Below, piece after piece: positions 22,906-36,633 of a stretch of DNA of 64,000 nt. The notes beneath the pieces were generated by a model. That model did no database searches, was not told the DNA's origin, and saw only the letters and a list, made by a program, of their open reading frames with translations. The position numbers and the translations under genes are program-made. Source of the DNA: Pelagicoccus sp. SDUM812003. GTDB lineage: Bacteria > Verrucomicrobiota > Verrucomicrobiia > Opitutales > Opitutaceae. Each line of letters opens with the position of its first letter. The stretch's first letter is position 1. Location of the stretch: positions 124,001 through 188,000 of the forward strand of contig NZ_JARXHY010000010.1 in NCBI RefSeq assembly GCF_031127815.1. Direction: 5' to 3'.

Positions 22906-22930
22906 TTGTTCTACCCTATTTTTAAGGATA

Positions 22931-22963
22931 ACCCATTTCCCACCCAGGGAAGTGGGTTTTTTT
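22931..22963 (+). terminator. Terminator of the ATP synthase operon
   Basis: ACCCATTTCCC pairs with GGGAAGTGGGT (one T-G pair) around a short loop, followed by seven T residues. The start codon of the next gene lies 3 nt after the T tract. Confidence 0.9.
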
Positions 22964-22966
22964 GTG

Positions 22967-23938
22967 ATGAAGTTAATAATTCAGATACCCTGTTATAACG
23001 AAGAGGAGACTCTAGCCGAGACTCTACATGACTTACCAAGAAAAGTAGAAGGCTTCGACAGGGTGGAATGGCTGATCGTGGATGATGGTTGCACAGATCG
23101 AACCGTAGAAGTGGCTCGTGCTAATGGTGTCGATCACATAGTTAGGCAACCGGTTAATCGCGGTTTAGCAAAAGCGTTTCTTAAAGGTCTCGAGAGTTCC
23201 GTTTCCTACGGAGCTGACGTTATCGTCAATACAGATGCTGATAATCAGTACAACGCGAAGGGAATTCATGAACTCGTTAAACCTATTGTAGGTGGTCAGG
23301 CAGATATCGTAGTAGGAGCTCGACCGATATCGGAGATTGAGGAATTCTCTCCTATCAAGAAATTACTGCAGAAGCTTGGTAGTTCAGTCGTGAGGAAGTT
23401 TAGTAATACTAATGTAACAGACGCTCCAAGCGGGTTTAGGGCATTTTCTCGTGAAGCGGCTCGGATGCTAAATGTATTTAGCGAGTATACATATACCCTG
23501 GAAACGCTTATTCAAGCGGGGCAATCGGGGCTAAGTATCATCAACGTACCCGTACGAGTGAACTCTAAGACGCGAGAATCAAGACTGGTTAAAAACATAT
23601 TTTCCTACGTGAATCGTTCTATCGCTACGCTGTTTCGAATTTACGTAATATACAAGCCAATGCGTTTCTTTCTGACGATCGGTACGATATTAAACGTGAT
23701 AGGAGGTTTAATTGGACTAAGGTTTTTATATTACTTTATAACAGAAGGTGAAGCAGGAAAGATCCAATCGCTTATTTTGGCTGCAATTCTGATTGGGTCA
23801 GGGATACAAATGTTTGTAGTCGGTGTTATAAGCGATTTGCTCTCTGTAAACAGGAGGCTTCTTCAGCAAAATCAGTTGAGGCTCAAGTACATTGAAGAAA
23901 AACTGACCAGTGAAAGTAAGATCAATACTAGAAAATAA
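22967..23938 (+). CDS. DPM1/GtrB-like polyprenyl-phosphate glycosyltransferase (GT2)
   Basis: From the ATG at 22967 (MKLIIQIPCYNEEETL) the protein is 323 residues. The first 210 residues are a GT2 domain of the dolichol-phosphate-mannose synthase type: IPCYNEE at the N-terminus, VDDGCTDRT, the metal-binding NTDADNQY (DxD-like) and the acceptor-region motif VTDAPSGFRAFSREAARML. Two C-terminal membrane helices follow (about residues 230-255 and 260-290) and a basic tail. Such enzymes load a sugar onto undecaprenyl phosphate at the cytoplasmic face. It overlaps the next gene, a flippase-like membrane protein, by 29 nt. The start codon follows the atpC terminator by 3 nt, so there is no room for a normal leader; a GTG one codon earlier is possible. 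Confidence 0.88.
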   Translation: MKLIIQIPCYNEEETLAETLHDLPRKVEGFDRVEWLIVDDGCTDRTVEVARANGVDHIVRQPVNRGLAKAFLKGLESSVSYGADVIVNTDADNQYNAKGIHELVKPIVGGQADIVVGARPISEIEEFSPIKKLLQKLGSSVVRKFSNTNVTDAPSGFRAFSREAARMLNVFSEYTYTLETLIQAGQSGLSIINVPVRVNSKTRESRLVKNIFSYVNRSIATLFRIYVIYKPMRFFLTIGTILNVIGGLIGLRFLYYFITEGEAGKIQSLILAAILIGSGIQMFVVGVISDLLSVNRRLLQQNQLRLKYIEEKLTSESKINTRK

Positions 23939-24842
23939 GAATTTAAGGATACTTGGCAATGTTCTTACTGTATTGGGGATTATTTTCATCGCGTACGCCT
24001 TGTACCAAAAGTCGTCAGAATTTGATGCTCTATACTTGAGCATACGTGTTGTTCTCTCCATATTTTTTGGTTCGATTCTTTGGATTCTCTTTAACGTATT
24101 CTTGGGACTTGGATGGTCATCGCTTCTCATTGTATTTGGAGAAAAGATTGATCCACGTTTTGCTCAAAAGATCTGTCTGAAGACGCAAATTGCTAAGTAC
24201 GTTCCAGGGAACGTGTTCCAGTTCGTGGGAAGGGCGTTGGAATACAAGCTTGTTTACGGGGGAGTTTCAGCAGCAGTACGTTCAATTCTGGCAGAAAGCA
24301 TAATACTAGTCTTTCTCGCTGCTAGTGTTGCTGTTCTGTTTTTTGTAAGCACCTCGTATTTTTTGAGTTACCTTGTGGCACCTGTTTTGATCACAATGAT
24401 GGTGTTGTCTGTAATCGCTTGGGCTGTTTTTCGGGCAGGAAAATATAGAATCTTGTTCAAGGTACATTATAGTAAGTATGGGGTGTTAAAATCAGTGTCA
24501 TGTTACTACATGATCTTTATTTTACAAACAACAATACTCTATGTGATTTTGGTTGGTATGAAAGTACCTATTCAGATGGACCTGTATGAATTACACTCAG
24601 TTTTGACCATTTCTTGGGTAGTAGGATACGTTGTTGTAGGCTCTCCCGGTGGTTTAGGCGTTCGAGAAACTGTATTCGCAATGTTGGTACAAAACGAATC
24701 AGACTCTGTAGAACTTGTGATAGCGATTGTATTTCTAAGAATAGCCGCAGCAATAGGCGACTTGTGGAGTTATCTACTGTCGCTTTTTATCAAAGCCCCA
24801 ATAGTACCCCACTTAATGAGACGAGGAGTTGATGCAGGATAG
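23910..24842 (+). CDS. UPF0104 / LPG-synthase-TM-like integral membrane protein
   Basis: This 310-residue protein has about eight hydrophobic helices. The motif KYVPGNVFQFVGRALEY and the later GSPGGLGVRE...FLRIAAAIGDLW are characteristic of the lysylphosphatidylglycerol synthase transmembrane-region family (UPF0104, AglD-like). Members near GT2 genes are thought to help move or present lipid-linked sugars. The start is a GTG at 23910 inside the end of the preceding GT2 gene; the end overlaps the next gene by 11 nt. This tight packing indicates one translationally coupled unit of three genes: a polyprenyl-P sugar synthase, a probable flippase-like partner and a membrane transferase. Confidence 0.8.
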   Translation: MKVRSILENKNLRILGNVLTVLGIIFIAYALYQKSSEFDALYLSIRVVLSIFFGSILWILFNVFLGLGWSSLLIVFGEKIDPRFAQKICLKTQIAKYVPGNVFQFVGRALEYKLVYGGVSAAVRSILAESIILVFLAASVAVLFFVSTSYFLSYLVAPVLITMMVLSVIAWAVFRAGKYRILFKVHYSKYGVLKSVSCYYMIFILQTTILYVILVGMKVPIQMDLYELHSVLTISWVVGYVVVGSPGGLGVRETVFAMLVQNESDSVELVIAIVFLRIAAAIGDLWSYLLSLFIKAPIVPHLMRRGVDAG

Positions 24843-26796
24843 CAAAATGCATGAGAATATATTAAGAATGGCGGTAACTTTGAAGTTGTCGGTATTTTTC
24901 GGGCTCGCACTGTCGATTTCTGCTTCGGTGGTTTTAACTGAATTGATCTTTTATTTTGGGTTCAGTTTTGATCTCGTTGTAGCTGTCTTTTGGATTACCT
25001 TTGGGGTTGGCGGTGCTATGTCTTATGGTGCCTTTAGGAAACTGAGAATATCGATTCCAAATGGTATGGAAATACTGACTCTATCTATTTTACTAGCAAT
25101 GTTCGTTTATTTGTATCGGTCACCAAATGAAGTTATTGTAGGTGGCCAAGATCCTTCGGTCTATTACGCGAAAGCAGTTGCATTGGTAGACTACGGCGAA
25201 TTGCACAAACCAATGAAGTCATGGGGAGTATTGAGCAGCTCCACGATTAATGAAACTGAAATACCGGCTTTACTAGGTCGTTATAATTATAGTTTTAATG
25301 GAATCATCCCCGAAGAACATGAAGGACAGTACTACCTAAAAAGTGACTTTTTGTCTGGTCCGGTGGTTTTACACGCAGTTCTTGGTAAGTTGAATAGGGA
25401 ACTGATAAGATATGGATCAGTTTTATATGCGGGAATGGCGTTTGCAGCATTTTATTTGCTTGTTAGGGAGTGTACAAATTTTTGGACCTCTTCTGTTGGT
25501 ACGGCGATCTTTATGTTAGTGCCATCGCAACTCTTTATTGGATTGTCTACTTTTTCTGAGATTCCAACGCAATTCCATTTACTGTTTCTTGTATTAGTGT
25601 GTAATTATGCTATTCGTGTGCGGGAGCAGGGACCGATCTTATTGATGACTACGCTCTTCTTAGCTGCTATGTCAATTGTTGCTATGCGTATCGACGGTTT
25701 TCTATATGTCTTGCCCTTTGCTTTGTGGCTTGTTGTCAGTGACTGTCTGCCAAGTAGGAGACTACAATTATTCCTATGGTCAATTGGAATTGTGTGCGTG
25801 CTTACGTTCATGAAGGAAAACCATGGATTGTACTTTTTCAGAATATATATCGAATTTCCTTTGATTAGATACCAGCGCGAACTCTCAGGCATCACTGTTG
25901 CACTTTTGTTCTTGCTTACTTTTAAAGAGTTGGGTCTTAAACGCTGGCTTAGCTACATCAAAACGATTCGGCCGATGTGGGGTGGAATTTTTGGTTTAGC
26001 AATTTTCATAATGCTTTATTATGTGCGGCCGAATGTGGAACCGTTTCATGAAAGGGAGGCTTTCGGCAGAATATTTCGTTCTTATCGAGAAAATACTCTT
26101 TTAAATGTTACCTACACTCTAAACTACGTATGTGTCTTGCTCGGTTTTGTAGGAGCCATGTATATGGTTAGAAAGGAAGTTAAGAGAGTGGAGCATTGTT
26201 CACTTCTTGCCTACCTTGGATGCTTTTTTGTATTTGCTGCACTTATGCTCTACAATACTACAGCGTCTCCGCAAATGTACTTTTCAGTTCGCAGGTTTTT
26301 GCCTATCGTCACCCCTGGACTCATTTTGATTGCCTTGTATCTTGTTCACCGGATGAGGTACAAATGGTTATCACGTTTCCTTCTAATACTGATGGTCTTA
26401 CTGCAAATGAGAATCTATGCTGGATCGGAATACAAAATTGAGATGGATGGTGCGGAACGGTCATTGAAAAATTTCTCACGACGCTATGGTAATGATAAAA
26501 TTATTGTAAGTGACCTCGATTATCGTCATGTTCTGTTCGCTCTAGTGTACGGAGGAAAAAACGAATTTATTCCAATTTCTGAAGCTGCTGGTAACAATTT
26601 GGAAACTGTAAAGAAGATTGGTCACGAGCTTGGAAATAAGCGTATATTGAGGGTAGAAAGAGACACTAGCGACGCAAACTTTGTATTTGAGTATGAACGA
26701 TTCGAAGAAAGATATGATAAATTGCCAAGACAAAGGCATAAATCTAGGGAACCATTGAGAGTAAGTGAAGCTGGCTCAAGCCAGCCTGGTCAATAG
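24832..26796 (+). CDS. Polytopic membrane protein, GT-C (GT39/GT83-like) glycosyltransferase candidate
   Basis: The start at 24832 follows a good Shine-Dalgarno (GAGGAG) and gives 654 residues. About a dozen hydrophobic helices are followed by a soluble C-terminal tail of about 110 residues. After the second or third helix there is a periplasmic-type loop, VGGQDPSVYYAKAVALVDYGEL, like the acidic first loop of PMT/ArnT-family transferases that use polyprenyl-phosphate sugars. The position behind a DPM1-like synthase and a flippase-like protein supports a role in adding a sugar outside the membrane. The family assignment is by pattern and context only. Two small inverted repeats, including GCTGGCT-CA-AGCCAGC at 26769-26784, lie at the 3' end. 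Confidence 0.65.
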   Translation: MQDSKMHENILRMAVTLKLSVFFGLALSISASVVLTELIFYFGFSFDLVVAVFWITFGVGGAMSYGAFRKLRISIPNGMEILTLSILLAMFVYLYRSPNEVIVGGQDPSVYYAKAVALVDYGELHKPMKSWGVLSSSTINETEIPALLGRYNYSFNGIIPEEHEGQYYLKSDFLSGPVVLHAVLGKLNRELIRYGSVLYAGMAFAAFYLLVRECTNFWTSSVGTAIFMLVPSQLFIGLSTFSEIPTQFHLLFLVLVCNYAIRVREQGPILLMTTLFLAAMSIVAMRIDGFLYVLPFALWLVVSDCLPSRRLQLFLWSIGIVCVLTFMKENHGLYFFRIYIEFPLIRYQRELSGITVALLFLLTFKELGLKRWLSYIKTIRPMWGGIFGLAIFIMLYYVRPNVEPFHEREAFGRIFRSYRENTLLNVTYTLNYVCVLLGFVGAMYMVRKEVKRVEHCSLLAYLGCFFVFAALMLYNTTASPQMYFSVRRFLPIVTPGLILIALYLVHRMRYKWLSRFLLILMVLLQMRIYAGSEYKIEMDGAERSLKNFSRRYGNDKIIVSDLDYRHVLFALVYGGKNEFIPISEAAGNNLETVKKIGHELGNKRILRVERDTSDANFVFEYERFEERYDKLPRQRHKSREPLRVSEAGSSQPGQ

Positions 26797-26857
26797 TAGA
26801 CCATGAATTGCATAAAAGCATATTTATTGAGCATGGGTGTTTTCGGATTATTAAAAA

Positions 26858-27871
26858 ATGCAAATATTTATTGAAACAACAGGTGAATCCAGAACGGTAG
26901 ATTTTGGAGGTGTCTACGATTTCAACGCTACCGATTCATACCGAGATACTGGAGTTGTTGCGATATCCCGAATCGTTAGGGAAATTCGGGAAGGTAAACC
27001 TTGGAAGCAAGCTGTGTTTGATGAGTTTGGTGTAGGTAGTTGGATAAGCGATATCATCACTTCCGATGCGAGGCATCGATTTTATACAGAAAGCCTAAGT
27101 TTGTGCGATCAGAGAGTATTAGATATCGGATCGGGATGGGGACAGATTGCAGCCCCTTTAACGAAAAAAAACGATCTGTTTTGCGTAGACTTGAGTTTAG
27201 ATAAACTAGTATTCACGCAGCTGATATCGAGAGTGGAAGGTGATTCTAGTCGGTTTTGTGGCATAGCTGCCGACATCGGTAAAATCCATTTTCAGGAAAA
27301 GTTTGATACTATCATACTTAATGGAGTTCTTGAGTGGATTCCTAAGTTTACCTTTAGTAGTAAAACCGTTCCCGAAGCTCAATACGATTTATTGCGACGG
27401 GCGAAGCAACAGCTCAAACCTGGAGGCCGCATCGTCATAGGTATTGAAAATAGGATAGGTTTAAAGTATTTATTGGGAGTGCCAGATGACCATATTGGTC
27501 GCCCGAATCTGTTAAATTTGGATTGGGAGACAGTTGTTAAAATTTCTGAAGATCAAAACGTTGAACCGCCGAGAGTTAGAACAATGACAATGAATGAGTA
27601 TGAAGATCTGCTGAAGAAGGTTGGTTTTCTTCCCATAGAGTTTTATTGTGCATTCCCTGATTACAAAATCCCTGAACGTGTCATAAGTGTTAACGATAGT
27701 GAGGGGTTAACTAATTTCGCTCTGAATGAAACCGTACCAAACGAGCGGTCGGGTTATGATGGTGCAAGTATAGATATAAATAGGGAGCTCAAATCCCATT
27801 ATCGCACATTTGCTCGAATGGGGGTATTAAAGTACTTCTCACCTAGTTATTATATAGTTGCTTTCGCGTGA
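26858..27871 (+). CDS. Class I SAM-dependent methyltransferase, partner of the kinase-coiled coil protein
   Basis: This 337-residue protein has a Rossmann methyltransferase core: motif I VLDIGSGWGQIAAPL (about residues 87-101), the acidic end of strand beta2 (FCVDLSLDKL), motif IV-like FDTIILNGVLEWIP and the post-core LRRAKQQLKPGGRIVIGIENR. An N-terminal region of about 80 residues and a C-terminal part (NEYEDLLKKVGF) complete it. Its stop overlaps the GTG start of the following kinase-coiled coil-GT2 gene by 4 nt, so the two proteins are made together. In E. coli O8/O9a, methyltransferase and kinase domains are fused in WbdD, which ends chain growth by adding a methyl-phosphate or methyl cap. 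A similar capping role is inferred here. Confidence 0.85.
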   Translation: MQIFIETTGESRTVDFGGVYDFNATDSYRDTGVVAISRIVREIREGKPWKQAVFDEFGVGSWISDIITSDARHRFYTESLSLCDQRVLDIGSGWGQIAAPLTKKNDLFCVDLSLDKLVFTQLISRVEGDSSRFCGIAADIGKIHFQEKFDTIILNGVLEWIPKFTFSSKTVPEAQYDLLRRAKQQLKPGGRIVIGIENRIGLKYLLGVPDDHIGRPNLLNLDWETVVKISEDQNVEPPRVRTMTMNEYEDLLKKVGFLPIEFYCAFPDYKIPERVISVNDSEGLTNFALNETVPNERSGYDGASIDINRELKSHYRTFARMGVLKYFSPSYYIVAFA

Positions 27872-30780
27872 AAACGTTAAAAGAGGAAGTTGATTTTTGG
27901 ATTGAGTCTAATGAACTCTTACGTGGTAAACAATGTGTTCAATTTGAACCTATAAAAACCAAGACTTTTAAGTGCACCACAGACTGTGACGAAGTTTTAA
28001 CGATAAAAGAAGTAACTGATCTTACCTCGAGGTTTCCAGATATCGAAAGACTGTATAGTAGGTTTGCTGACTTCGTTCAGAGGCCCTTGGGAAGAATTAA
28101 TTTCAAGAATAAGGCATTACTCGTTTCAGAGTTTGTAGAAGGAACGTCTGTTAGTGATTTATATAAAGAAGGTGTTTTAACTCGAAATGATGTTGTAAAT
28201 GTGTTCCTAGGTTTGCTCGACAGGCTAGATGATGCATTGGAGTTTTCGACTTCTGAGAGTCGATTACGGGAAATAATTGAACTGGAGGAGTCGTTGCATA
28301 CCCTCGTAGAGTCAGGCCTTTTGATTAGTTTTGAAGTCACTTCGGTTGTGAGTGCACTTAAAGAGCTTATTGATGAGGAAGAGCCAATGGTCCGATTTTC
28401 ACCAGGAGACCTAATCGCACAAAATATAATAATAAGACCGAATGGCGAACCTTGTTTAATTGATTTAGAGTATACACGCTATACACATTTTTATAAAGAA
28501 GATACACTGCGGTTTGTTTCGTTCTCTAATATTGATTTCGATAGGGAAAATTTAATTGATAGAGTAAAGGAAAGGCCGAGTGACGCTACCTGCCTTTATA
28601 TGTGGTTAAAACAGATATCGTTAGAAGCTCTACGACTTCAGAAGAGTACGTTTGGCCCGGTATTTGGACACAACCTTTCGAAGATTTACGATGTTTTGAA
28701 TAAGAACGGTTTCTTATCAAAATTAGGGTGTATGTGGCAGGGGATTGGGTATCTAAAATCTGTTGCCTGTCGATTGGAAGAGGAAAATAGGAACTTAACA
28801 GATATCCGAGAAAAACAATTGTCAGAAAAAGATTTCCTCTATCGGAATGAGATTGACCGTATAAGCGCAGAACGAGATCAATTGCTTGATAGAAAAGATA
28901 AAGCTTACCAGGAAGAGATCGAGAGGATTATAAAGGAACGAGATTGTTTACTTACGAAGAAAGATGAGGCTTATACGACTGAGATCGAACGAATTGGAGC
29001 TGAGCGAGATAGGCTGTTATTAGACAAGGACATTAGCTATCGGAATGAAATAGATAGAATAATACAAGAAAGAGAACAACTGTTATCAGAGAAGGATAAG
29101 TTATACCAATTGGAAATAAAGAGAATTTCTCTCGAACGTGAGAAACTCCTCTTAGATAAAGATCAAGCTTACCAAATTGAGATTAAAAGGCTCACAGATG
29201 AAAGGGAAGAGTTGTTGCTCAGTAAGGATGAAGATTATCAAGCAGAGATTAAACGGATCGGGGTTGAGCGCGATAGCATGTTAGCCGACAAAGATCGCGC
29301 ATTTCGAGAAGAGATAGACAGACTGGTTAAGGAACGTGACAGTCTACTTCAGGATAAGGACAGTGTCTATCAAGGAGAGATCGTGAGGATTCGCGACTTG
29401 CATGCAGAGGAAACGAAGACACTTCAAAGATTAAAGGCAGCAGAACTCGACGCGGTAACAATACAATTTAAAGCCGAGAGACAGCAAATAATAGAACACT
29501 TTGAAAGTCTATTGCCAGAAATTCTTGTAATTGTTGTAGACTATAATGGAGCTCACTACTTGGATAAATTGTTTCTGGCTCTCAAAAGGCAAACTTTTAA
29601 ACGATTTCGTATCTCGTTGGTCGTAAATGGCGATTATCAATCATGCGAAAAGATTGCATTATGTCACAGGGATAGTCTACGCATCGATTTGATAGTCCCT
29701 GAGAGAAACGTTGGTTTTGCAAGTGGTAATAATTTGGCTTACCGCAATAGCAGCGAGGAGTTTGTCGCACTGCTTAACAATGACACAATACCGGAAGATA
29801 ACTGGTTATATGAATTGTACCGAGAGATTATGATTTCACCGGATATTGCGGCCGTAAACTCAAAGATACTTTTTAATAGCAAATATGCTGAATTGCGTAT
29901 CACAAGTCCTACTTTTACTCCAAGTGAGATTGGGTTGTCGAAGGACTCACGAGAGTTAGGTGTTTTTATCTCTATTGAAGATGAAGACGGCAAACCAGTT
30001 AAGGTTTTTTCTAAAGGGGGACTTCACGACAAAGAAGTGGTAGAAGGAAGGGAATTCCGTTGGACTAATGGAGAAGCGACGATATGGATACCAGCAAATT
30101 CCCATTCAATAAACTTGTATTTGCGTACTAATCCTCAACTTTTTGACTCCGTCGTACAGTTGAAATCAGGAGACCTATCAATTGATGTTGTTATGGACGA
30201 GCAAGAAAAGCGATTGAGTCTTTCTGAATTGCTGAGGGATAATTTCTTTGATGTAATTAATAATGCCGGGTCCTATATTAAGAACGAGCGAGAGGTTGGA
30301 GATATCGGTATTTTTGAAAAGGATATAGGACAGTATAATGACTCTAGAAATGTGGATTCAGTTTGCGGATGTTCAATACTGCTAAGACGAAGAGCGGTTG
30401 GAGAAGATATTTTCCCCAATTCTTTTTTTGCGTATTTTGAAGACACCGATTTAAGTTGGAGGCTACGAAAGCAAGGATTCCGCTTGAGGTATACTCCTAG
30501 GAGTGTAGTTCGACATATTCATGGAGGCTCTGCTGGAGAGAGAAGTCCATTCTTTAATTATCATGTATACCGTAATTACCGTTGGTTGCTGGTTCGAAAT
30601 TGTACTAGTTACGTCAGAATTCTTTATCTTATTTTCAAAGAGTTAAGAGACTATTTTATTCCAGTAGGAGGGCTATCTCCAAAATATAATAGCGTAAAAT
30701 TGAAAAAAGATACGATTCGAGGTATGTTTAAATACCTGTTTCAGCGTTTGTTTGGTAAAAATGAGAATTGGAATTTATAA
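27868..30780 (+). CDS. Kinase-like / 22-residue-repeat coiled coil / GT2 glycosyltransferase fusion (WbdD-like)
   Basis: This 970-residue protein has three parts. Residues 1-300 resemble a protein-kinase/aminoglycoside-phosphotransferase fold: the hinge-like LLVSEFVEGTS, catalytic loop PGDLIAQNIII (Asp181, Asn186) and metal-site strand CLIDLEY (Asp199). Residues about 300-545 are a long charged coiled coil containing eight exact 22-residue repeats (325-500). Residues 551-970 are a GT2 rhamnosyltransferase-type domain (VVDYNG, NVGFASGNN, LLNNDTIP, FAYFEDTDLSWR), split between SKILF (665-669) and CGCSILLRR (833-841) by a beta-rich 163-residue segment. Methyltransferase, kinase and coiled coil in this order recall WbdD, the chain terminator and length ruler of E. 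coli O8/O9a. The GT2 fused at the far end is the novelty. It starts with GTG, overlaps the methyltransferase by 4 nt and the next GT4 gene by 20 nt. Confidence 0.85.
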   Translation: MKTLKEEVDFWIESNELLRGKQCVQFEPIKTKTFKCTTDCDEVLTIKEVTDLTSRFPDIERLYSRFADFVQRPLGRINFKNKALLVSEFVEGTSVSDLYKEGVLTRNDVVNVFLGLLDRLDDALEFSTSESRLREIIELEESLHTLVESGLLISFEVTSVVSALKELIDEEEPMVRFSPGDLIAQNIIIRPNGEPCLIDLEYTRYTHFYKEDTLRFVSFSNIDFDRENLIDRVKERPSDATCLYMWLKQISLEALRLQKSTFGPVFGHNLSKIYDVLNKNGFLSKLGCMWQGIGYLKSVACRLEEENRNLTDIREKQLSEKDFLYRNEIDRISAERDQLLDRKDKAYQEEIERIIKERDCLLTKKDEAYTTEIERIGAERDRLLLDKDISYRNEIDRIIQEREQLLSEKDKLYQLEIKRISLEREKLLLDKDQAYQIEIKRLTDEREELLLSKDEDYQAEIKRIGVERDSMLADKDRAFREEIDRLVKERDSLLQDKDSVYQGEIVRIRDLHAEETKTLQRLKAAELDAVTIQFKAERQQIIEHFESLLPEILVIVVDYNGAHYLDKLFLALKRQTFKRFRISLVVNGDYQSCEKIALCHRDSLRIDLIVPERNVGFASGNNLAYRNSSEEFVALLNNDTIPEDNWLYELYREIMISPDIAAVNSKILFNSKYAELRITSPTFTPSEIGLSKDSRELGVFISIEDEDGKPVKVFSKGGLHDKEVVEGREFRWTNGEATIWIPANSHSINLYLRTNPQLFDSVVQLKSGDLSIDVVMDEQEKRLSLSELLRDNFFDVINNAGSYIKNEREVGDIGIFEKDIGQYNDSRNVDSVCGCSILLRRRAVGEDIFPNSFFAYFEDTDLSWRLRKQGFRLRYTPRSVVRHIHGGSAGERSPFFNYHVYRNYRWLLVRNCTSYVRILYLIFKELRDYFIPVGGLSPKYNSVKLKKDTIRGMFKYLFQRLFGKNENWNL
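28840..29367 (+). repeat. Eight in-frame 66-bp repeats coding the coiled-coil rod
   Basis: Residues 325-500 of the fusion protein repeat every 22 residues without exception: an aromatic residue (Y325, 347, 369, 391, 413, 435, 457, F479, Y501), then an EI-x-RI-type helix, then ER-D/E-x-LL at 335, 357, 379, 401, 423, 445, 467 and 489, then a KD pair. Twenty-two equals two hendecads, which suits a nearly straight or right-handed coiled coil. The DNA copies have diverged, so the array is not recent, but it could still change by unequal recombination. Confidence 0.93.
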
Positions 30781-32269
30781 TAGATACTGGACTACGCTTG
30801 GAGGGGGAGAGAGGCATGTAGGTTCTATGATTGATGCGGTATTTAGCGGATCGGAAGTAGACTTGATATCTGTAAAACCCTTTGATCTAGAATCTCTTCG
30901 AGAGAAGCTATCACTTAAATTATGCAATTGCAGAGTGGTTGTTTGGCCCGATTTATCTGATAATGCTTTGGTCGCGAGGACTTGCGATTATGATCTATTC
31001 GTCAATGCAACCTATTGCTCTAGTCTGTACAGCCTAGCTACGCATTCTGTGTACTTTACTTTCTTTCCCCATAAAAGAATAAGGCAGGTTAAGTCTAAGT
31101 TTAACATTCCTAGAGCTATTGTTATAAGTGGTTCATACGAAAAAGAAGCGGATGGTCTCATGTGGACGTATCCCAAGTCTCGATGGACGTTCAATACTTT
31201 TAGAAAGGAGCTACGAATTCCCTTTAGAAGAATTAATCCAAACGCGAACCGAGATGAGCGGATTGTAGTTCGAAGTAGCGGGTGCCTTGTTGTAAAGGCT
31301 GATTTGGATGAGTTAATAATACGTGGTGTCAAACCATTCATTTCATCTATAACGATTGAATTCCCGAGCTACGAACCGGGAGTTAGTGACCGTAGGATAC
31401 TTGGAGCACCAGTTGATATGAATCTTCTTTGCGAATCAGGAGGTTTTCGGGAGGATGACGTTAACATTGTTAAACTTTTTAAGGCCGATTTTGTTAGATC
31501 TTATGATACTATAATTGCAAATTCGGAATATACCCGCCATTGGATTAAGAAACGTTGGAGGAGAAGTGCCTCGATACTGACGCCAGAGATCAACTCGCCG
31601 AATAGTTCTCGCCAGGAAAAAGAGAAACGGATCATTAGTGTTGGTCGTTTTTTTCCTGAAAGAGTAGGATCACACAACAAGAAGCAAGATGTCCTTATAC
31701 GTGCCTTTCGTACGCTTTGTGAACTCAAAGAGGTACGAGACCACTGGGTTCTGACCTTAGTAGGAACTATGATGAAGGCTCCGGAAGATGTGCTCTATTT
31801 GAAAGAACTACGACATCTAGCGGAGGGTTTACCTGTCGAGTTTCATGTAGACGTAGATAGGTCTGTTTTAAATACTCTCTATCAGAAGTCCTATCTTTTT
31901 TGGCAGGCAACTGGATATGGGGAAAGTATGAAAAGCCCAGAGCTCTTCGAACACTTCGGTATTACAACCTGTGAATCAATGAGTTATGGGTGTATTCCCG
32001 TTGTATATGATGCAGGTGGCCAGAGAGAAATCGTGGAGACTGGCACAAACGGTTTTCGATTCAGATCGATTGATGAACTTTGTGAACAGTCCCAACGAGT
32101 TATTGAGTTGTATCGTAAACCTGAGTCAGTGCGTATAGCGAATGAGGCGAGAGAAACGGCTCTTAGGTATGAACGTTTAGATTCGGGTGTTGTCGAAAAA
32201 TTGAAGAAGATTATAGAAAGCAACGATCAAGATAGACTAGGAAAGGGGGACGAAGTCTCTATACCTTGA
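30761..32269 (+). CDS. GT4-family glycosyltransferase with inserted beta-rich segment
   Basis: From the ATG at 30761 (MRIGIYNRYWTTLGGGERH) the protein has 502 residues. The N-terminal GT-B Rossmann domain opens with a GGGERH donor-loop motif; the C-terminal domain has IISVGRFFPERVGSHNKKQDVLIRAF and the acceptor/donor motif SPELFEHFGITTCESMSYGCIPVV, whose E-x7-E type glutamates are typical of GT4. About 100 residues between roughly 125 and 230 (containing IVVRSSGCLVVKAD and PSYEPGVSDRRILG) interrupt the first domain and do not look like GT4. The same P...DRR-x-LG pattern occurs in the inserts of the two GT2 enzymes of this locus. The gene overlaps the preceding stop by 20 nt, and its end overlaps the convergent methyltransferase gene by 11 nt. 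Confidence 0.85.
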   Translation: MRIGIYNRYWTTLGGGERHVGSMIDAVFSGSEVDLISVKPFDLESLREKLSLKLCNCRVVVWPDLSDNALVARTCDYDLFVNATYCSSLYSLATHSVYFTFFPHKRIRQVKSKFNIPRAIVISGSYEKEADGLMWTYPKSRWTFNTFRKELRIPFRRINPNANRDERIVVRSSGCLVVKADLDELIIRGVKPFISSITIEFPSYEPGVSDRRILGAPVDMNLLCESGGFREDDVNIVKLFKADFVRSYDTIIANSEYTRHWIKKRWRRSASILTPEINSPNSSRQEKEKRIISVGRFFPERVGSHNKKQDVLIRAFRTLCELKEVRDHWVLTLVGTMMKAPEDVLYLKELRHLAEGLPVEFHVDVDRSVLNTLYQKSYLFWQATGYGESMKSPELFEHFGITTCESMSYGCIPVVYDAGGQREIVETGTNGFRFRSIDELCEQSQRVIELYRKPESVRIANEARETALRYERLDSGVVEKLKKIIESNDQDRLGKGDEVSIP

Positions 32270-33041
32270 TTGCTTCAAATAGCAAGCCATTGTTACCAAG
32301 TATTCCCTGTTCTGGTGAATACAATTTGTACATGTTCGTATGGAAGCCAATTGCAGATAGTTTACACAGCATCTCTATAGAGAAAATTGTGTAAACTAGT
32401 ACGCCTTCTGGTCTGATTGGGTCATGATGATAGATAGGTTCAGAAAAGTGGTATATGGAATTGTCGGGTTTTAACTCTGCTCGAATATCGTCAAGGAAGC
32501 CTCCTTTGTGAAATGGAACAGTAAAGATGTGTCGTCCATCTTTTTTCAATACGCGGTAAACTTCTTTATGTGCTAGGTAAGGGTTCGGAATGTGTTCCCA
32601 TACGTCTGTGGAAAGTATGAGGTCGATGGAATCGTCTTCAAAGGATAGGTTCTGTGCGTCTTCGTTTCGGATTCCGTCGACTAGTTCGCCTGATGCAAAT
32701 TGAGGCCCGTAGTATTCTGAACAAGTGTAGTCTTTGTGCGCCTTCAACTTTTCGTGTATTGGTCCTTTTGCCTCTGTATTATAAATAGAAAGGGTTGTGC
32801 TGTTAATTAATTCTGTTATTGATTGATCGTATACTTTGCCTATTCCAACGCCCACTTGGCGCTGACGATTCGTTGAACCGCACTCTTCGCATATCCCGCT
32901 CTCTCGGAAGTTCTCTGTCCAATTGCTAAAGACGACGTACTTTTCACAGATTGGGCATGTTCCTGATGTTTTGTTCAGGGTAAGAGCAGACTTTTCAATA
33001 TCGGTGATCACAGTGTCTGCTAAAGGGTAGATTTTATTCAT
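32259..33041 (-). CDS. SAM methyltransferase with N-terminal zinc ribbon
   Basis: This 260-residue protein begins with a likely zinc ribbon, CPIC (about residues 29-32) and CEEC (51-54). It continues with a class I methyltransferase core: a divergent motif I region (SIYNTEAKGPIHEKL, SEYYG), the DIVLSTDVWEHIP-type motif (DLILSTDVWEHIPNP) and the post-core VYRVLKKDGRHIFTVPFHKGG. Proteins of this kind modify sugars or lipid-linked intermediates in polysaccharide loci. It is the last gene of the wzm-wzt minus-strand operon, 41 nt after wzt. Its 3' end overlaps the convergent GT4 gene by 11 nt. Confidence 0.85.
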   Translation of the reverse strand: MNKIYPLADTVITDIEKSALTLNKTSGTCPICEKYVVFSNWTENFRESGICEECGSTNRQRQVGVGIGKVYDQSITELINSTTLSIYNTEAKGPIHEKLKAHKDYTCSEYYGPQFASGELVDGIRNEDAQNLSFEDDSIDLILSTDVWEHIPNPYLAHKEVYRVLKKDGRHIFTVPFHKGGFLDDIRAELKPDNSIYHFSEPIYHHDPIRPEGVLVYTIFSIEMLCKLSAIGFHTNMYKLYSPEQGILGNNGLLFEAIKV

Positions 33042-33082
33042 TTTTAGAGAAAAAATTTAGACTATGGAGTCCTTAGGCGTCT

Positions 33083-34456
33083 TTATGAGATTGTTTCGAA
33101 TTGCGCATATAGATTTGCGATTCCAGCACAATGATCTTCCGGCAGTATTGTTATCTTGTGAAAATCGTATTTTCTATGGATGACTTTGATATCATCGCCT
33201 GAGAAGAAAACCCACCCGAGCGAGAGAAAGTAATCGCCGGGCATTAGATTTAATTCGATCTTTATGCAAAAGTGGGGACTACTCCCGCGTAATATCGCGG
33301 GGGTAGGGGTATTCGAAAACATTGTGTTGTAAATATATACTTCTTGTCCTGTCTTGGATTTTACAGTTAACCCGAAAACGGAGTCGAGAATGTCTTCATC
33401 GCCTCTAGCAGAGAATTTTAGTTGGAGCGAATCTCTAGGCAGAAATATATTCTTTTCCTCGTTGTTCGCACCGAGGATGGAGATGTTTTCAAGTCTTCCC
33501 AGTTTCTTTCCATACTCAAACTCTTTTAGATCTTGAATCTCTGAACCATTGGTTGAGCGCTTTTTGAAGAGATTTGATAGTATTGTTTCTAGGCGTTCCT
33601 CTCTAGACTTTTTGTTTGCTTGCTTCTCGGCAAAAGGCTCGCTGTTTTCAGATACAGATTCTGTGTCTTCAGATTTAGCTTCTTCAATGCTGACACCACT
33701 AGTCAATTTTGAGTATAAATTGCAAACATCATTTGGGTTACCTTCTACAATTACTTTACCTTGATCTAGAAGGACGGCTCGTTTGCAGTAGTTTTTTATT
33801 GCGATCGGACTATGCGATACGAGCAGCAGCGTTTTGCCGGACTTCACCAATTTGTCCATTGTTTTGGAACACTTTAGCTGAAACCAGGCGTCGCCTACAC
33901 TCAGAGCTTCATCTATGATAAAAATCTCTGCATCAACGTGAACAGCAATAGAAAACGCCAGTCTCATTTGCATGCCGCTAGAATACGTCTTCACGGGTTG
34001 GTCAATAAATTCAGAGATTTCGGAATACTCTATGATTTTTGGCGTTCGTTCATCAATTTCTTCAGGTGTGAGACCAAGTATTGTGGCATTTATTTTTATG
34101 TTCTCTCTTCCCGTGAACTCCGGATTAAAACCCGAACCTAGTTCAAGTAAGGCGGCAACTTTTCCAGTTACTTTCAATTCACCCTCTGTTTGTTTAAGGG
34201 TCCCGGCGACAATCTGGAGGAGGGTACTTTTACCAGCTCCGTTTCTTCCGATAATGCCCACGGATTCGCCTTTTTGGACATTTAATGAAACGTTGTCGAG
34301 TGCCTTGAATGTTCGAAAGTGTTTGTTGGTGTAGTTAGGATTGTAGCGCTTTACTAATGACCAAAATGACGCTCGCAGACGTGCGGATTGGCTTTTCCAG
34401 ATTCGGTAATGCTTGGATAGGTTCGACGCTTTGATTGCTAAAGTCTCAGATGACAT
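33083..34456 (-). CDS. wzt: ABC transporter ATPase for polysaccharide export with C-terminal glycan-binding domain (Wzt)
   Basis: At 457 residues this has the extended Wzt layout. The ATPase domain (about 1-250) holds Walker A GRNGAGKST, the signature YSSGMQMRLAFSIAV, Walker B IFIIDEALSVGD and the switch histidine in LVSHS. After an acidic linker (about 255-310, ESVSENSEPFAEKQ) a C-terminal beta-sandwich of about 150 residues follows (LENISILGAN...IFLPRDSLQLKFSA...LTVKSKTGQEVY), matching the Wzt_C domain. In E. coli O8/O9a this domain recognises the capped non-reducing end, so its presence beside a WbdD-like gene fits terminal-cap-dependent export. The start overlaps the end of wzm by 11 nt. 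Confidence 0.95.
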   Translation of the reverse strand: MSSETLAIKASNLSKHYRIWKSQSARLRASFWSLVKRYNPNYTNKHFRTFKALDNVSLNVQKGESVGIIGRNGAGKSTLLQIVAGTLKQTEGELKVTGKVAALLELGSGFNPEFTGRENIKINATILGLTPEEIDERTPKIIEYSEISEFIDQPVKTYSSGMQMRLAFSIAVHVDAEIFIIDEALSVGDAWFQLKCSKTMDKLVKSGKTLLLVSHSPIAIKNYCKRAVLLDQGKVIVEGNPNDVCNLYSKLTSGVSIEEAKSEDTESVSENSEPFAEKQANKKSREERLETILSNLFKKRSTNGSEIQDLKEFEYGKKLGRLENISILGANNEEKNIFLPRDSLQLKFSARGDEDILDSVFGLTVKSKTGQEVYIYNTMFSNTPTPAILRGSSPHFCIKIELNLMPGDYFLSLGWVFFSGDDIKVIHRKYDFHKITILPEDHCAGIANLYAQFETIS

Positions 34457-35231
34457 CGGCGAATGATTCCTTTAAGCGATTAAATACGAAAGTACCCAGG
34501 AAAAAGACGGAGATGCTTGTTCCATAGATGTAGTAAATGTTTGCGGGTGTTTCTCCTGTTTGCCAGAGGAGAGTGAATCGAGTCCATTCTATGAAATGAA
34601 TCAGTGGATTGTATTTCAATATTTCCCAAGCTTCGTCGGGGATTAAGTTAGTTCCATAGAAGACGGCACTGGAAAACAATAGTGCCATATTAAGGAAGCC
34701 GATAAAGTTGGATATGTCTTTTATGTATATCGCTAGGGAGGATAGTATCATGCTTATTCCCACTCCTGCGAGAAACATCGGAATTATTATAATGGGCAAA
34801 TAAAGAAAAGGAATGGCCGATCTGTCGCAGAAAAATGCTATAAGAATGGCCGAAAATACAAATTTGATAATTGCGTTGTATAGGGCTTGAGTGACGTGAG
34901 AGATAGGAAGGACCTGAAGAGGAAACACGACTTTTTTCACAAAATTGGGATTTGAAGAAACAGCTGTTGGAGAGATCGCCAGAATATCCGAAAAGTAACC
35001 AAAAAGAGTTATTCCAATTAGTATCGCAGCAGCGTGTTGATATGGGGTCTCATTCGTCACTACTTCGAAGGATCCGCCATATATGAAGCCAAAGACATAT
35101 GAATAGATCATAAGCATTAGCAACGGGCTTAGCAAGGTCCAGACCGCTCCCATGTAACTTCCTCTGTACTGAAGCTGTATCTGTCTCTTGGTAAATTGGT
35201 ATATTAAGTTACGATGCTTTAAGAAGTTCAT
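34446..35231 (-). CDS. wzm: ABC-2 type polysaccharide exporter permease (Wzm)
   Basis: This 261-residue membrane protein has six predicted helices and the ABC-2/TagG pattern at the N-terminus (KRQIQLQYRGSYMGAVWTLLSPLLMLMIYSYVFGFI). The central part shows NPNFVKKVVFPLQVLPISHV, the gate-helix region of the family, and the last loop contains KYNPLIHFIEWTR. It pairs with the downstream Wzt, whose gene overlaps its end. Transport would be of a complete lipid-linked glycan from cytoplasm to periplasm. Transcription starts in the 112-nt region shared with the divergent GT2 gene; no clear promoter was recognised. Confidence 0.94.
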   Translation of the reverse strand: MNFLKHRNLIYQFTKRQIQLQYRGSYMGAVWTLLSPLLMLMIYSYVFGFIYGGSFEVVTNETPYQHAAAILIGITLFGYFSDILAISPTAVSSNPNFVKKVVFPLQVLPISHVTQALYNAIIKFVFSAILIAFFCDRSAIPFLYLPIIIIPMFLAGVGISMILSSLAIYIKDISNFIGFLNMALLFSSAVFYGTNLIPDEAWEILKYNPLIHFIEWTRFTLLWQTGETPANIYYIYGTSISVFFLGTFVFNRLKESFADVI

Positions 35232-35343
35232 TTTGAAAAAGAAAACAGTGAAGCCTGGTTCTCTTGTCTATGTTTGGTTTAATCGTTTCTCCGAAAATTT
35301 GCTTTTGTTGACAGGGAAGGCGAACTATGTGTTTGGATCGCAT

Positions 35344-36606
35344 ATGATCCAGAGAATTTTGAAGACAAGTCCACTCGTTTCCGTGGTTGTTGTGGATCAT
35401 AATGGGTCTCATTTTTGGCCGGATCTGATTGACGGACTTGAAACGCAGAGCTTCAAAGACTTCGAAGTAGTCCTTGTCGAAAATGGAGGACGAGTCGAAA
35501 TCGGCTCGCAACAGCATAGTTTCAGTATCCGTAGGATAGTGACAGATACGAACATAGGGTTCTCTCAAGGTTGTAACTTGGGCTGGGTGAAGAGTGAGGG
35601 AGAATTCGTGGCTTTTTTGAATAACGATACAACTCTAGGCGAGAGGTGGCTAGAGATGCTCGTGCGGAGGGCTGAGGAATCCAGGGAGAATGCTATCGTG
35701 GCTTCGAAGATTCTTTTTGATAAAAGGTGCGCATTTTTCGACGTAGCATCGCCCACCTATATCCCGTCGATGGTGGGGAGTGGAGAAGATCGAAGGAGGT
35801 TGGGAATAAGGCTAAACTTGGGAGGCTATTCTTTGCTGCTGCACCTTCAGAAAAATGTTCACTTTCCCGAGCTGGTCTCGGCGAATTACTGGATTTGGAC
35901 CAAAGAAAAATCGGAGATCGCATTGTTCGAGTCGGATGATGGCGCTTATCGGGTTGAGTTTTGGGCGCCAGAACAACACGATGGAAAGTTCGTTTGTTTC
36001 GCAACCAAATCAGGTAAGCGTACTTTCGTGAAGGCGAAGGGTCGATCGAACGAAGTCGTAGAAATTACAGCTGAGAATTCGGAAAGCGGCTATTTGGTGA
36101 ATAGTGCTGGATGCTCGATATCTGAGAACTGGCTCGTTGAGGAGACTGGTCTCTACGAGCTGGACAATGGGCGTTTTGATGAACCAAGGGAGCTTGAAGC
36201 AGCGAGTGCCTGTTCAATACTCGTGAGAAAGTCTTCGTTTAGTGGTGAGTTGCCGTTTGATCCAGCGTTTTTCGCCTACTACGAAGATGTCGATTTTTGC
36301 CGGAAAGCGCGTGCTAGAGGATATCGAATTATCTATGAGCCGAAGAGTGTGGTCTACCACAAGAGATCTGGGACGGCGGGGGTGCAGTCGGCTTTCCAGG
36401 TGTTTCATTCGACGCGGAATCGATTTTGGGTGATCGCCAAGCATGCCCCTTGGAAAGTGGTCCTGAAGTCGATGTGGGGAGAGATGAGAAATCTCGATTG
36501 GTACGCTCCTTGGCTGGATGACGAGTTTTCGCTAAGTCGCTTGAAAAGAGAGACTTGGTTGGGGTTTGCGAAGCGTGTCTGGTGGCGTTTGACGGACGCT
36601 GAATAG
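35344..36606 (+). CDS. GT2 glycosyltransferase with 163-residue inserted segment
   Basis: The ATG at 35344 (MIQRILKTSPLVSVVVVDHNG) gives 420 residues; earlier TTG/GTG codons would add up to 52 residues and reach into the divergent wzm gene. Rhamnosyltransferase-type GT2 motifs are VVVDHNGSHF, TNIGFSQGCNLG, FLNNDTTLGERW and FFAYYEDVDFCRKARARGY. Between SKILF and ACSILVR lie exactly 163 residues, the same spacing as in the big fusion protein. Aligned marks at both ends include SPT-x-x-PS, DRRRLG and E-x-D-x-G. The two proteins are therefore paralogues of one GT2 subtype. Base composition is intermediate between the island and the GC-rich genes beyond. Its stop shares a hairpin with the convergent GT4 gene. 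Confidence 0.88.
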   Translation: MIQRILKTSPLVSVVVVDHNGSHFWPDLIDGLETQSFKDFEVVLVENGGRVEIGSQQHSFSIRRIVTDTNIGFSQGCNLGWVKSEGEFVAFLNNDTTLGERWLEMLVRRAEESRENAIVASKILFDKRCAFFDVASPTYIPSMVGSGEDRRRLGIRLNLGGYSLLLHLQKNVHFPELVSANYWIWTKEKSEIALFESDDGAYRVEFWAPEQHDGKFVCFATKSGKRTFVKAKGRSNEVVEITAENSESGYLVNSAGCSISENWLVEETGLYELDNGRFDEPRELEAASACSILVRKSSFSGELPFDPAFFAYYEDVDFCRKARARGYRIIYEPKSVVYHKRSGTAGVQSAFQVFHSTRNRFWVIAKHAPWKVVLKSMWGEMRNLDWYAPWLDDEFSLSRLKRETWLGFAKRVWWRLTDAE

Positions 36607-36633
36607 AGAACCGTCTTTCTCTAAGTCGTTTTT
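36604..36633. terminator. Hairpin over the two convergent stop codons
   Basis: TAGAGAA (36604-36610) and TTCTCTA (36617-36623) are exact reverse complements; the stop codon of the GT2 gene is in one arm and the stop of the minus-strand GT4 gene in the other. GTTTTT follows at 36628-36633 on the plus strand, giving a terminator for the plus gene. Confidence 0.55.

Follow-up and report, generated by a model that had tools for sequence, protein, structure and literature searches.

A methyltransferase gene and a kinase-rod-glycosyltransferase gene near wzm/wzt in Pelagicoccus: a putative two-polypeptide glycan chain terminator with a matching Wzt sensor type

What is the role of two overlapping genes, one encoding a methyltransferase and the other a kinase-like domain joined to a rod and a glycosyltransferase, that lie close to the genes of an ABC transporter? 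Such a pair occurs in the window, a 64,000-nucleotide stretch of Pelagicoccus sp. SDUM812003 (contig NZ_JARXHY010000010.1, positions 124,001 to 188,000). The first gene (26858..27871, plus strand; 337 aa, ATG start) encodes a protein with Pfam methyltransferase domains (best E 4.5e-8), presumably the separate half of a capping enzyme. It overlaps by 4 nt the second gene (27868..30780, plus strand; 970 aa, GTG start), an arrangement that a sequence-only reading of this DNA had described and that ORF coordinates and Pfam bear out. The 970-aa protein is composed of a kinase-like domain (residues 1-296; 27868..28755), a predicted rod (residues 297-545; 28756..29502) and a GT2 region (residues 549-962; 29512..30753), all on the plus strand.

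We propose, with a probability of about 0.72, that the pair is a two-polypeptide methyl-phosphate terminator for a surface polysaccharide exported by the ABC transporter, and that it has a modular ruler and a Wzt sensor to match. The kinase domain would phosphorylate the non-reducing end of the glycan and the separate methyltransferase, presumably in physical association with the 970-aa protein, would methylate the end phosphate, thus stopping extension; we infer this phosphate-then-methyl chemistry from Klebsiella pneumoniae O7 and Escherichia coli O9a. The repeat-built rod would carry the kinase at one end and the GT2, probably a participant in polymerisation, at the other. Since the two would then sit at opposite rod ends, capping would be restricted to chains that can reach across the rod. 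Wzt would finally read the cap through its matching C-terminal domain and so allow Wzm/Wzt to export the chain.

The neighbourhood is that of a polysaccharide export cluster. The pair is followed by a group 1 glycosyltransferase gene (30752..32269, plus strand; Pfam Glycos_transf_1, E 8.4e-18), and the predicted presence of wzm/wzt with Wzt_C nearby is confirmed at 33083-35231 on the minus strand. Here wzt (33083..34456) encodes an ATPase (Pfam ABC_tran) with a C-terminal domain of the cap-binding type (Wzt_C at residues 314-447, E 3.3e-20; the whole sensor domain spans residues 306-457, 33086..33541, minus strand), and wzm (34446..35231) encodes the permease (ABC2_membrane, E 8.4e-21). Two further glycosyltransferase genes are common to the corresponding site in five genus relatives: a GT2 (35188..36606, plus strand; 37-52% identity, 47.5% GC) and a group 1 enzyme (36621..37892, minus strand; 46-51% identity, 59.4% GC, host-like). 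The five relatives have wzm/wzt at this site and lack the methyltransferase-kinase pair. In the window, the pair and wzm/wzt fall within a low-GC stretch (~40%) between atpC and metW (22906..35900, right edge approximate). Other cassette products resemble a side-chain module, namely a GT2, a multi-span protein and a membrane protein of 655 aa. The GT2 of the 970-aa protein (Pfam match at residues 554-663, E 4.1e-13) is a paralogue of the one at 35188-36606, with 31% identity to it and 31-38% to the stand-alone GT2s of the five genus relatives.

The same gene pair is present beside wzt in many genomes, as had been suggested for checking, and this recurrence makes the pairing more than a chance one. 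Of 80 loci from a genome scan, 68 have wzt upstream on the same strand (gap of -600 to 1500 nt), as do 17 of 22 family loci. Where a kinase was called (72 of the scanned loci), it always comes after the methyltransferase, fused to it in 49 and encoded by the following gene in 23; the other eight comprise seven loci that are probably fused and lack a kinase call, and one methyltransferase at a contig end. The split form therefore accounts for 23 of the 80 scanned loci and, window included, for 19 of the 22 family loci (L156, from genome G480, was dropped, its genes and scores being equal to those of L040), which rules out that a separate methyltransferase is unusual or unique to this locus. Also the split arrangement with a kinase-rod-GT2 protein recurs, in three further loci, after three (L059, with the rod call inside the glycosyltransferase, and L048 and L066, with the rod call after it) were set aside from the seven fused and four split loci scored as having both coiled coil and glycosyltransferase. 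The one annotated record of the family that was consulted, on a Citrobacter plasmid, is labelled only as a methyltransferase.

Wzt sensor type and the methyltransferase-kinase pair go together. When scored against the sensor of the window, 17 of 18 Wzts from split-pair family loci reach 76-112 bits, and all 25 pairless family Wzts stay at or below 23.8 bits (13-21% identity) although their ATPase domains are almost as close to that of the window, in a pairless set that was hand-picked (five of seven genus genomes plus 20 from the upper ranks of a list of 151 genomes with a match, some others of similar rank being omitted). The same holds within two genomes that have both kinds of Wzt, where the pair-adjacent copies score 86.8 and 95.1 bits and those away from the pair 1.5 and 15.1 bits. 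In the genome scan, 67 of the 72 Wzts found exceed 23.8 bits and five lie at or below this pairless maximum. Two family loci have the pair and a non-matching sensor, namely L036, the one fused family locus (-3.5 bits), and the split L040 (15.7 bits). Wzt C-terminal sensor domains read non-reducing-end caps, according to an excerpt of PMC9445017.

This match may alternatively go back to common descent, wzt, methyltransferase and kinase having been imported as one block, rather than to a coupling between writer and reader, an explanation that we consider unlikely and that would be compatible with capping. The co-occurrence counts are uncorrected for ancestry, the low-GC stretch includes wzm/wzt, and the ATPase domain of the window is also closer to that of pair-bearing split Wzts (51-58% identity) than to that of pairless ones (45-51%). 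Wzm, however, does not follow, with identities of 33-39% (six pair-bearing family loci that gave a hit) and 33-42% (the five genus loci lacking the pair). Moreover, the sensor match extends to Paenibacillus (35% identity, 71 bits), despite an ATPase domain that is only 46% identical.

The proposed terminator needs two enzymatic activities. The methyltransferase is well modelled by AlphaFold (pLDDT 89.0, pTM 0.90), and the top Foldseek matches of the model are SAM methyltransferases (E 9.6e-11); CgnL, the nearest structure in PMC11231755 (excerpt), is not named among the best 50. Six residues published for the O7 methyltransferase (Y28, Y66, G91, G93, E112, Y158) form a fingerprint that, at the published spacing, is matched at five or six positions in 18 of 102 relatives and at five or more in none of 897 control ORFs. 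The window protein has three of the six, which says little about it because 431 of the 897 control ORFs have at least three.

For the second activity, we relied on several lines of evidence. The 970-aa protein carries the PGDLIAQN and IDLEY motifs noticed earlier, and residues D181, N186, D199 and E201 are invariant in a 62-row alignment of the window with relatives from several phyla (the relatives being 61 of 72 kinase regions from the locus scan), the N-lobe lysine not being established. A profile of 15 family kinases matches corramycin phosphotransferase (E 1.4e-4), and Pfam APH is found in two of the 15 (best E 2.5e-5). Other profile matches are fainter: choline kinase is hit by Pfam below threshold at residues 158-206 (E 0.024) and by the broad kinase profile at E 0.018 only, and a Pfam scan assigned a kinase family to just one of the 62 regions. 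The iterated kinase profile is prone to drift, yet its listed matches lie in or beside a methyltransferase gene, except for one 259-aa ORF in L098. The predicted structure is modest (pLDDT 63.2, pTM 0.54, with residues 1-80 at 31-59). In the structural comparison, done by Foldseek only, the best 50 of 1602 matches (E <= 10) are all kinases or kinase-domain proteins, none of the matches has E <= 0.001, and WbdD, AmiN and CgnL are all absent from the names of the best 50 for this and for the methyltransferase model. A kinase-type fold for residues 1-296, whose absence from residues 1-300 had been named as the refuting outcome, is thus supported, and from its sequence matches the domain looks APH-like rather than WbdD-like.

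It is distinctly improbable that this kinase is degenerate or acts elsewhere, leaving the methyltransferase alone to add a methyl-only cap, as in E. coli O8 and WsaE, and the kinase-rod-GT2 protein to serve as scaffold and polymerase. Methyl-only caps do exist (O8 WbdD, PMC3482155; WsaE, PMC2943079; both in excerpt), the model of the window kinase is poor in its N-terminal region, and D199 is replaced in one of the 15 family kinases (L155, second alignment). Against this, a scaffold would not need the four residues that are invariant in 62 rows across several phyla, and the methyltransferase keeps its kinase partner in split and fused forms alike.

The two-polypeptide terminator would owe its ruler to the rod, which may measure glycan chain length. 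The rod was called by a crude custom coiled-coil script rather than a published predictor and would extend ~37 nm if fully helical (our own arithmetic, 1.485 Å per residue). It contains nine consecutive repeats of ~22 residues (66 nt), the ninth degenerate, at residues 319-516 (28822..29415, plus strand); self-identity is 0.51 at lag 22, compared to a maximum of 0.207 in 1000 shuffles (lags 7-59). The repeats are visible at the protein level and were not found by a DNA tandem-repeat search; lag-66 identity of the repeat-region DNA is 0.53. They place a coiled coil between the kinase and the C-terminal GT2, which starts at residue 549. By the same crude score, a rod after the kinase is missing from 13 of the 19 split family loci (L022 and L039 among them are cut by a contig end), and therefore a ruler is not required for the methyltransferase-kinase pair. 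Such relatives without a rod call and the side-chain-like proteins of the cassette would fit a pair that modifies internal or side-chain sugars, with chain length set otherwise, which is nevertheless very improbable given that the sensor type tracking the pair belongs to domains that read non-reducing-end caps (PMC9445017, excerpt).

Among described systems, K. pneumoniae O7 ORF6 comes closest, judged from its published description in an excerpt of PMC11231755. This methyltransferase-kinase-coiled coil-GT2-GT2 protein, with tested methyl-phosphate capping, refutes the earlier statement that no system with this architecture had been described; WbbB and WsaE also combine termination with glycosyltransferases. 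Like the window, O7 ORF6 has a methyltransferase, an APH-like kinase, a coiled coil and a C-terminal GT2 in an ABC-transporter pathway, and it has terminator and polymerase at opposite rod ends, as we propose here. Its kinase resembles AmiN, in agreement with the APH-type matches of the window kinase family. In O7 ORF6, however, everything is on a single chain, the GT2 modules number two and the coiled coil is preceded by an additional carbohydrate-binding-like domain, whereas the window has a separate methyltransferase gene with a 4-nt overlap, one detected GT2 and a rod of ~22-residue repeats. O7 was biochemically tested, and the pair of the window was analysed from its sequence.

The sequence-only reading had called the pair a relative of WbdD, and this we reject. 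Neither window protein matches WbdD of E. coli HS by blastp better than E 0.33 (residues 1-320 of the 970-aa protein: best E 0.46), hhalign aligns the methyltransferase at the SAM-binding core only (residues 84-184, probability 78.7, E 1.7e-5) and returns nothing useful for the kinase (probability 1.9), and the iterated kinase profile yields only a 6-bit match at WbdD 326-370. What stands of the suggested WbdD-like logic is the co-occurrence of methyltransferase partner, kinase-type fold, rod, GT2 and Wzt C-terminal domain. The E. coli O9/O9a system shares methyltransferase, kinase, coiled coil and wzm/wzt with a C-terminal sensor (PMC3482155, excerpt), but its sensor is only 19% identical to that of the window, its eukaryote-like kinase is fused to the methyltransferase and its polymerase WbdA is separate, whereas the window has a kinase that looks non-WbdD-type, separate genes and a GT2 fused to the rod. 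WsaE of Geobacillus stearothermophilus likewise has its capping methyltransferase in one system with glycosyltransferases, next to wzm/wzt; there the methyltransferase is joined to two glycosyltransferases and the excerpt of PMC2943079 describes no kinase, in contrast to the kinase-like domain and separate methyltransferase of the window. In K. pneumoniae O12, a single WbbB molecule both terminates and polymerises and has a coiled-coil ruler, as in our proposed layout, but its Kdo cap is added by a glycosyltransferase, without methyltransferase or kinase (PMC11231755, excerpt).

This kind of terminator is thus already known and widespread. The new detail is its two-gene form with a matched export sensor, and split forms may already appear in a survey of termination chemistry (doi 10.1093/glycob/cwz066). 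These data suggest that the O7-type terminator is a member of a large family, including the window's own family, Clostridia and Proteobacteria, and is often encoded by two genes. More tentatively, at somewhat less than even odds for the whole, cap writer (the pair) and matched cap reader (the Wzt C-terminal type) may form an exchangeable module that spreads across phyla, Gram-positive Clostridia and Paenibacillus included, with a changing set of permease, rod and glycosyltransferases around it, and in the window about nine units of 22 residues may make the rod a modular ruler, so that chain length could change stepwise as units are gained or lost. If so, sequence alone would suffice to predict the kind of glycan cap, through the type of Wzt sensor domain, and a rod built of equal units would allow a clean test of how a ruler controls chain length.

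We confirmed both open reading frames of the sequence-only reading, including their 4-nt overlap: a SAM methyltransferase gene (26858-27871, + strand, 337 aa; ORF, Pfam, AlphaFold and Foldseek) and a gene encoding a 970-aa protein with kinase-like, rod and GT2 parts (27868-30780, + strand). The methyltransferase was modeled with a pLDDT of 89.0 (best Foldseek E 9.6e-11). The GT2 domain of the 970-aa protein lies at residues 554-663 (Pfam E 4.1e-13) and is a paralog of the GT2 at 35188 (31%). On the strand opposite to the pair, Pfam identified wzt (with Wzt_C) and wzm at 33083-35231.

Pfam gave a weak choline-kinase match to residues 158-206 of the 970-aa protein (E 0.024). The model of residues 1-320 had an overall pLDDT of 63.2, with 88-94 at residues 91-120, 91 at 181-200 and 31-59 at 1-80. 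None of its 1,602 Foldseek matches (E <= 10) reached E <= 0.001, and the best 50 were all kinases or kinase-domain proteins (E 0.0047 upward). A narrow profile of 15 sequences (the window, L040 and 13 family loci) matched corramycin phosphotransferase (E 1.4e-4), and Pfam APH was found in two of these sequences (best E 2.5e-5). Against this, a broader 62-row profile reached choline kinase alone (E 0.018), and a Pfam scan of its rows assigned a kinase family to the window only (E 0.0078). D181, N186, D199 and E201 are invariant across the 62-row alignment; D199 is missing from one locus (L155) of the 15-row alignment. We regard the region as an APH-like kinase domain, a moderately confident assignment.

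The methyltransferase profile matched 23 of 252 genomes of the family Opitutaceae, 10 of 384 of the class Verrucomicrobiia and, in the order to which a Pantoea relative belongs, 4 of 394. Scanning named genomes retained 80 loci of at least 158 confirmed relatives. Among the matches listed, most hosts were Lachnospiraceae; others included Paenibacillus, Pseudomonas graminis, Pantoea, Hydrogenophaga, Pseudoxanthomonas and an Opitutia MAG. The split into two genes is found in 23 of these 80 loci (49 are fused, 7 probably fused with no kinase call, and 1 has the methyltransferase alone) and in 19 of 22 family loci, counting the window and leaving out L156, a copy of L040. In 68 of the 80 named-genome loci and 17 of the 22 family loci, a same-strand wzt gene occurs no more than 1.5 kb upstream; in the window wzt is on the opposite strand. 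The split kinase-rod-GT2 order recurs in three loci (L041, which also has the 4-nt overlap, L074 and L112), a fourth (L052) has kinase, rod and RgpF-type GT, and five fused loci carry a rod ahead of GT2 (L062, L072, L075, L102, L115). Within the family, split, rod and GT2 occur together in the window only, by a crude coiled-coil score. By the same score, seven of the 19 family split loci (L031, L032, L143-L147) have a kinase and GT with no rod call, which suggests that termination may be possible in loci lacking one; five have a kinase and rod without GT. One family relative (L036, 5274-8609, - strand) is a single 1112-aa protein with methyltransferase, kinase-like motif, rod and GT2, and adjoins a Wzt whose sensor differs from the split-locus type. 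A surface-sugar cluster on Citrobacter braakii plasmid pF217-3, typed conjugative (L189, record 86452-101291), holds rml sugar genes, genes for the permease and ATPase of an ABC transporter, three glycosyltransferase genes and a 649-aa protein annotated merely as methyltransferase, sharing 27.5% identity with the window protein across residues 86-277.

To compare Wzt proteins, we divided them into the ATPase (residues 20-270) and the C-terminal sensor, taking residues 312-450 of the latter for identity and 306-457 for bit scores. Against 18 split-locus Wzts, the window Wzt showed 51-58% identity in the ATPase and 20-42% in the sensor. Against 25 pairless Wzts (5 from the genus and 20 from elsewhere in the family, two of them from genomes with the pair elsewhere), drawn from the upper part of the search list, a choice favoring similarity, the values were 45-51% and 13-21%. 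Sensors of 17 of the 18 split loci scored 76-112 bits (the exception, L040, 15.7), and all 25 pairless sensors scored 23.8 bits at most; the fused L036 and E. coli O9 Wzt scored -3.5 and 10.0 bits. Apart from the self-match, the 18 top-scoring Wzts in the 252 family genomes all came from pair-bearing genomes. Across the 80 named-genome loci (of at least 158), 67 of the 72 Wzts found exceeded 23.8 bits and 5 did not; a Paenibacillus sensor (L058) reached 71 bits. Wzm showed no such division (33-39% to six pair-bearing family loci, 33-42% to five genus loci). Because Wzt C-terminal sensors of this kind bind end caps, according to the consulted part of PMC9445017, the simplest reading of these raw counts, which ignore kinship, is that the pair would make the cap read by the co-occurring sensor type.

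The rod contains nine consecutive 22-residue units at residues 319-516 (eight clear, the ninth degenerate; approximate consensus KDxxYxxEIxRIxxERDxLL), with a self-identity of 0.51 at lag 22 (shuffles <= 0.207). At the DNA level, identity at lag 66 is only 53%; the repeats are therefore either old or maintained at the protein level. If fully helical, residues 297-545 would span ~37 nm, compared with the ~20 nm quoted for WbdD in the consulted part of PMC5082667. Repeat lengths differ in some relatives: a family relative (L149, 9884-12139) has 57-residue repeats after the kinase (identity 0.78 at lag 57), closer copies than those of the window rod. By the crude score, no rod follows the kinase in 13 of the 19 family split loci (two cut by the contig end), so the ruler would be an addition in some loci, dispensable to the definition of the pair.

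The matching region was taken from five of seven genus relatives. All five carry wzm, wzt, metW and orthologs of the window GT2 (35188-36606) and group 1 GT (36621-37892). The methyltransferase had no match at this site in the five, nor anywhere in the seven genus genomes, and matches to the 970-aa protein in the five were confined to its GT part. In two relatives atpC lies within the compared stretch: in L168 it directly adjoins wzt, and in L167 a distance of ~3 kb that includes a further GT separates the two genes. The extra genes of the window span 22952-33041; GC is 38.5-42.1% for genes from 22952 through wzm and 55-59% for atpD, atpC, group 1 GT and metW. Three successive genes at 22952-26796 (+ strand) encode a GT2 whose C-terminal part has two hydrophobic stretches, a 310-aa protein containing six such stretches and a 655-aa protein containing ten, the last unmatched in Pfam; the trio resembles a three-part periplasmic side-chain module. 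A second methyltransferase gene (32259-33041, - strand; Pfam Methyltransf_11, E 6.2e-12) adjoins wzt on the same strand.

The pair had been called a relative of WbdD, which our comparisons did not bear out. E. coli HS (L163), which we take to be an O9 strain, is annotated with O9-family wzm/wzt; its 708-aa WbdD lies between wzt and wbdA. The best blastp E-value of the window proteins against this WbdD was only 0.33. By hhalign, the SAM-binding core of the methyltransferase aligned (prob 78.7, E 1.7e-5) and no other part of it did, and the kinase gave no useful alignment (prob 1.9). Bit scores were 5.1 for the methyltransferase profile and 6 for the iterated kinase profile, whose match fell at WbdD 326-370. 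With blastp, hhalign and profile scores insignificant outside the SAM-binding core, we rejected WbdD membership. The pair may nevertheless function in a WbdD-like manner.

The closest known system is K. pneumoniae O7 ORF6 (Kelly and others 2024; PMC11231755), described in the consulted sections as methyltransferase, AmiN-like kinase, carbohydrate-binding-like domain, coiled coil and two GT2 modules. It puts methyl-phosphate on the end sugar in vitro, and D441A abolishes its kinase activity. The orthologs reported there, from alpha- and gammaproteobacteria and cyanobacteria, have C-terminal GTs in some cases and lack them in others, and all are fused, with the methyltransferase N-terminal within one polypeptide, whereas in the window it is a separate gene. 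WsaE likewise joins a capping methyltransferase to two GTs (PMC2943079, consulted in part). Since both are already published, the claim that no such system has been described does not hold for terminator, rod and GT joined in one protein. For the split form, we found no description in the portions of the literature searched, a coverage lying outside the main chain-termination survey (cwz066).

In the mechanism we propose, the two proteins would associate, kinase and methyltransferase would together cap the glycan chain, the rod would fix its minimum length, GT2 would extend it and the Wzt sensor would gate export. The window locus is a variant of the O7-type terminator whose novelty is real, although smaller than first claimed, and what deserves follow-up is the co-occurrence of sensor type and pair, together with the repeat-built rod.
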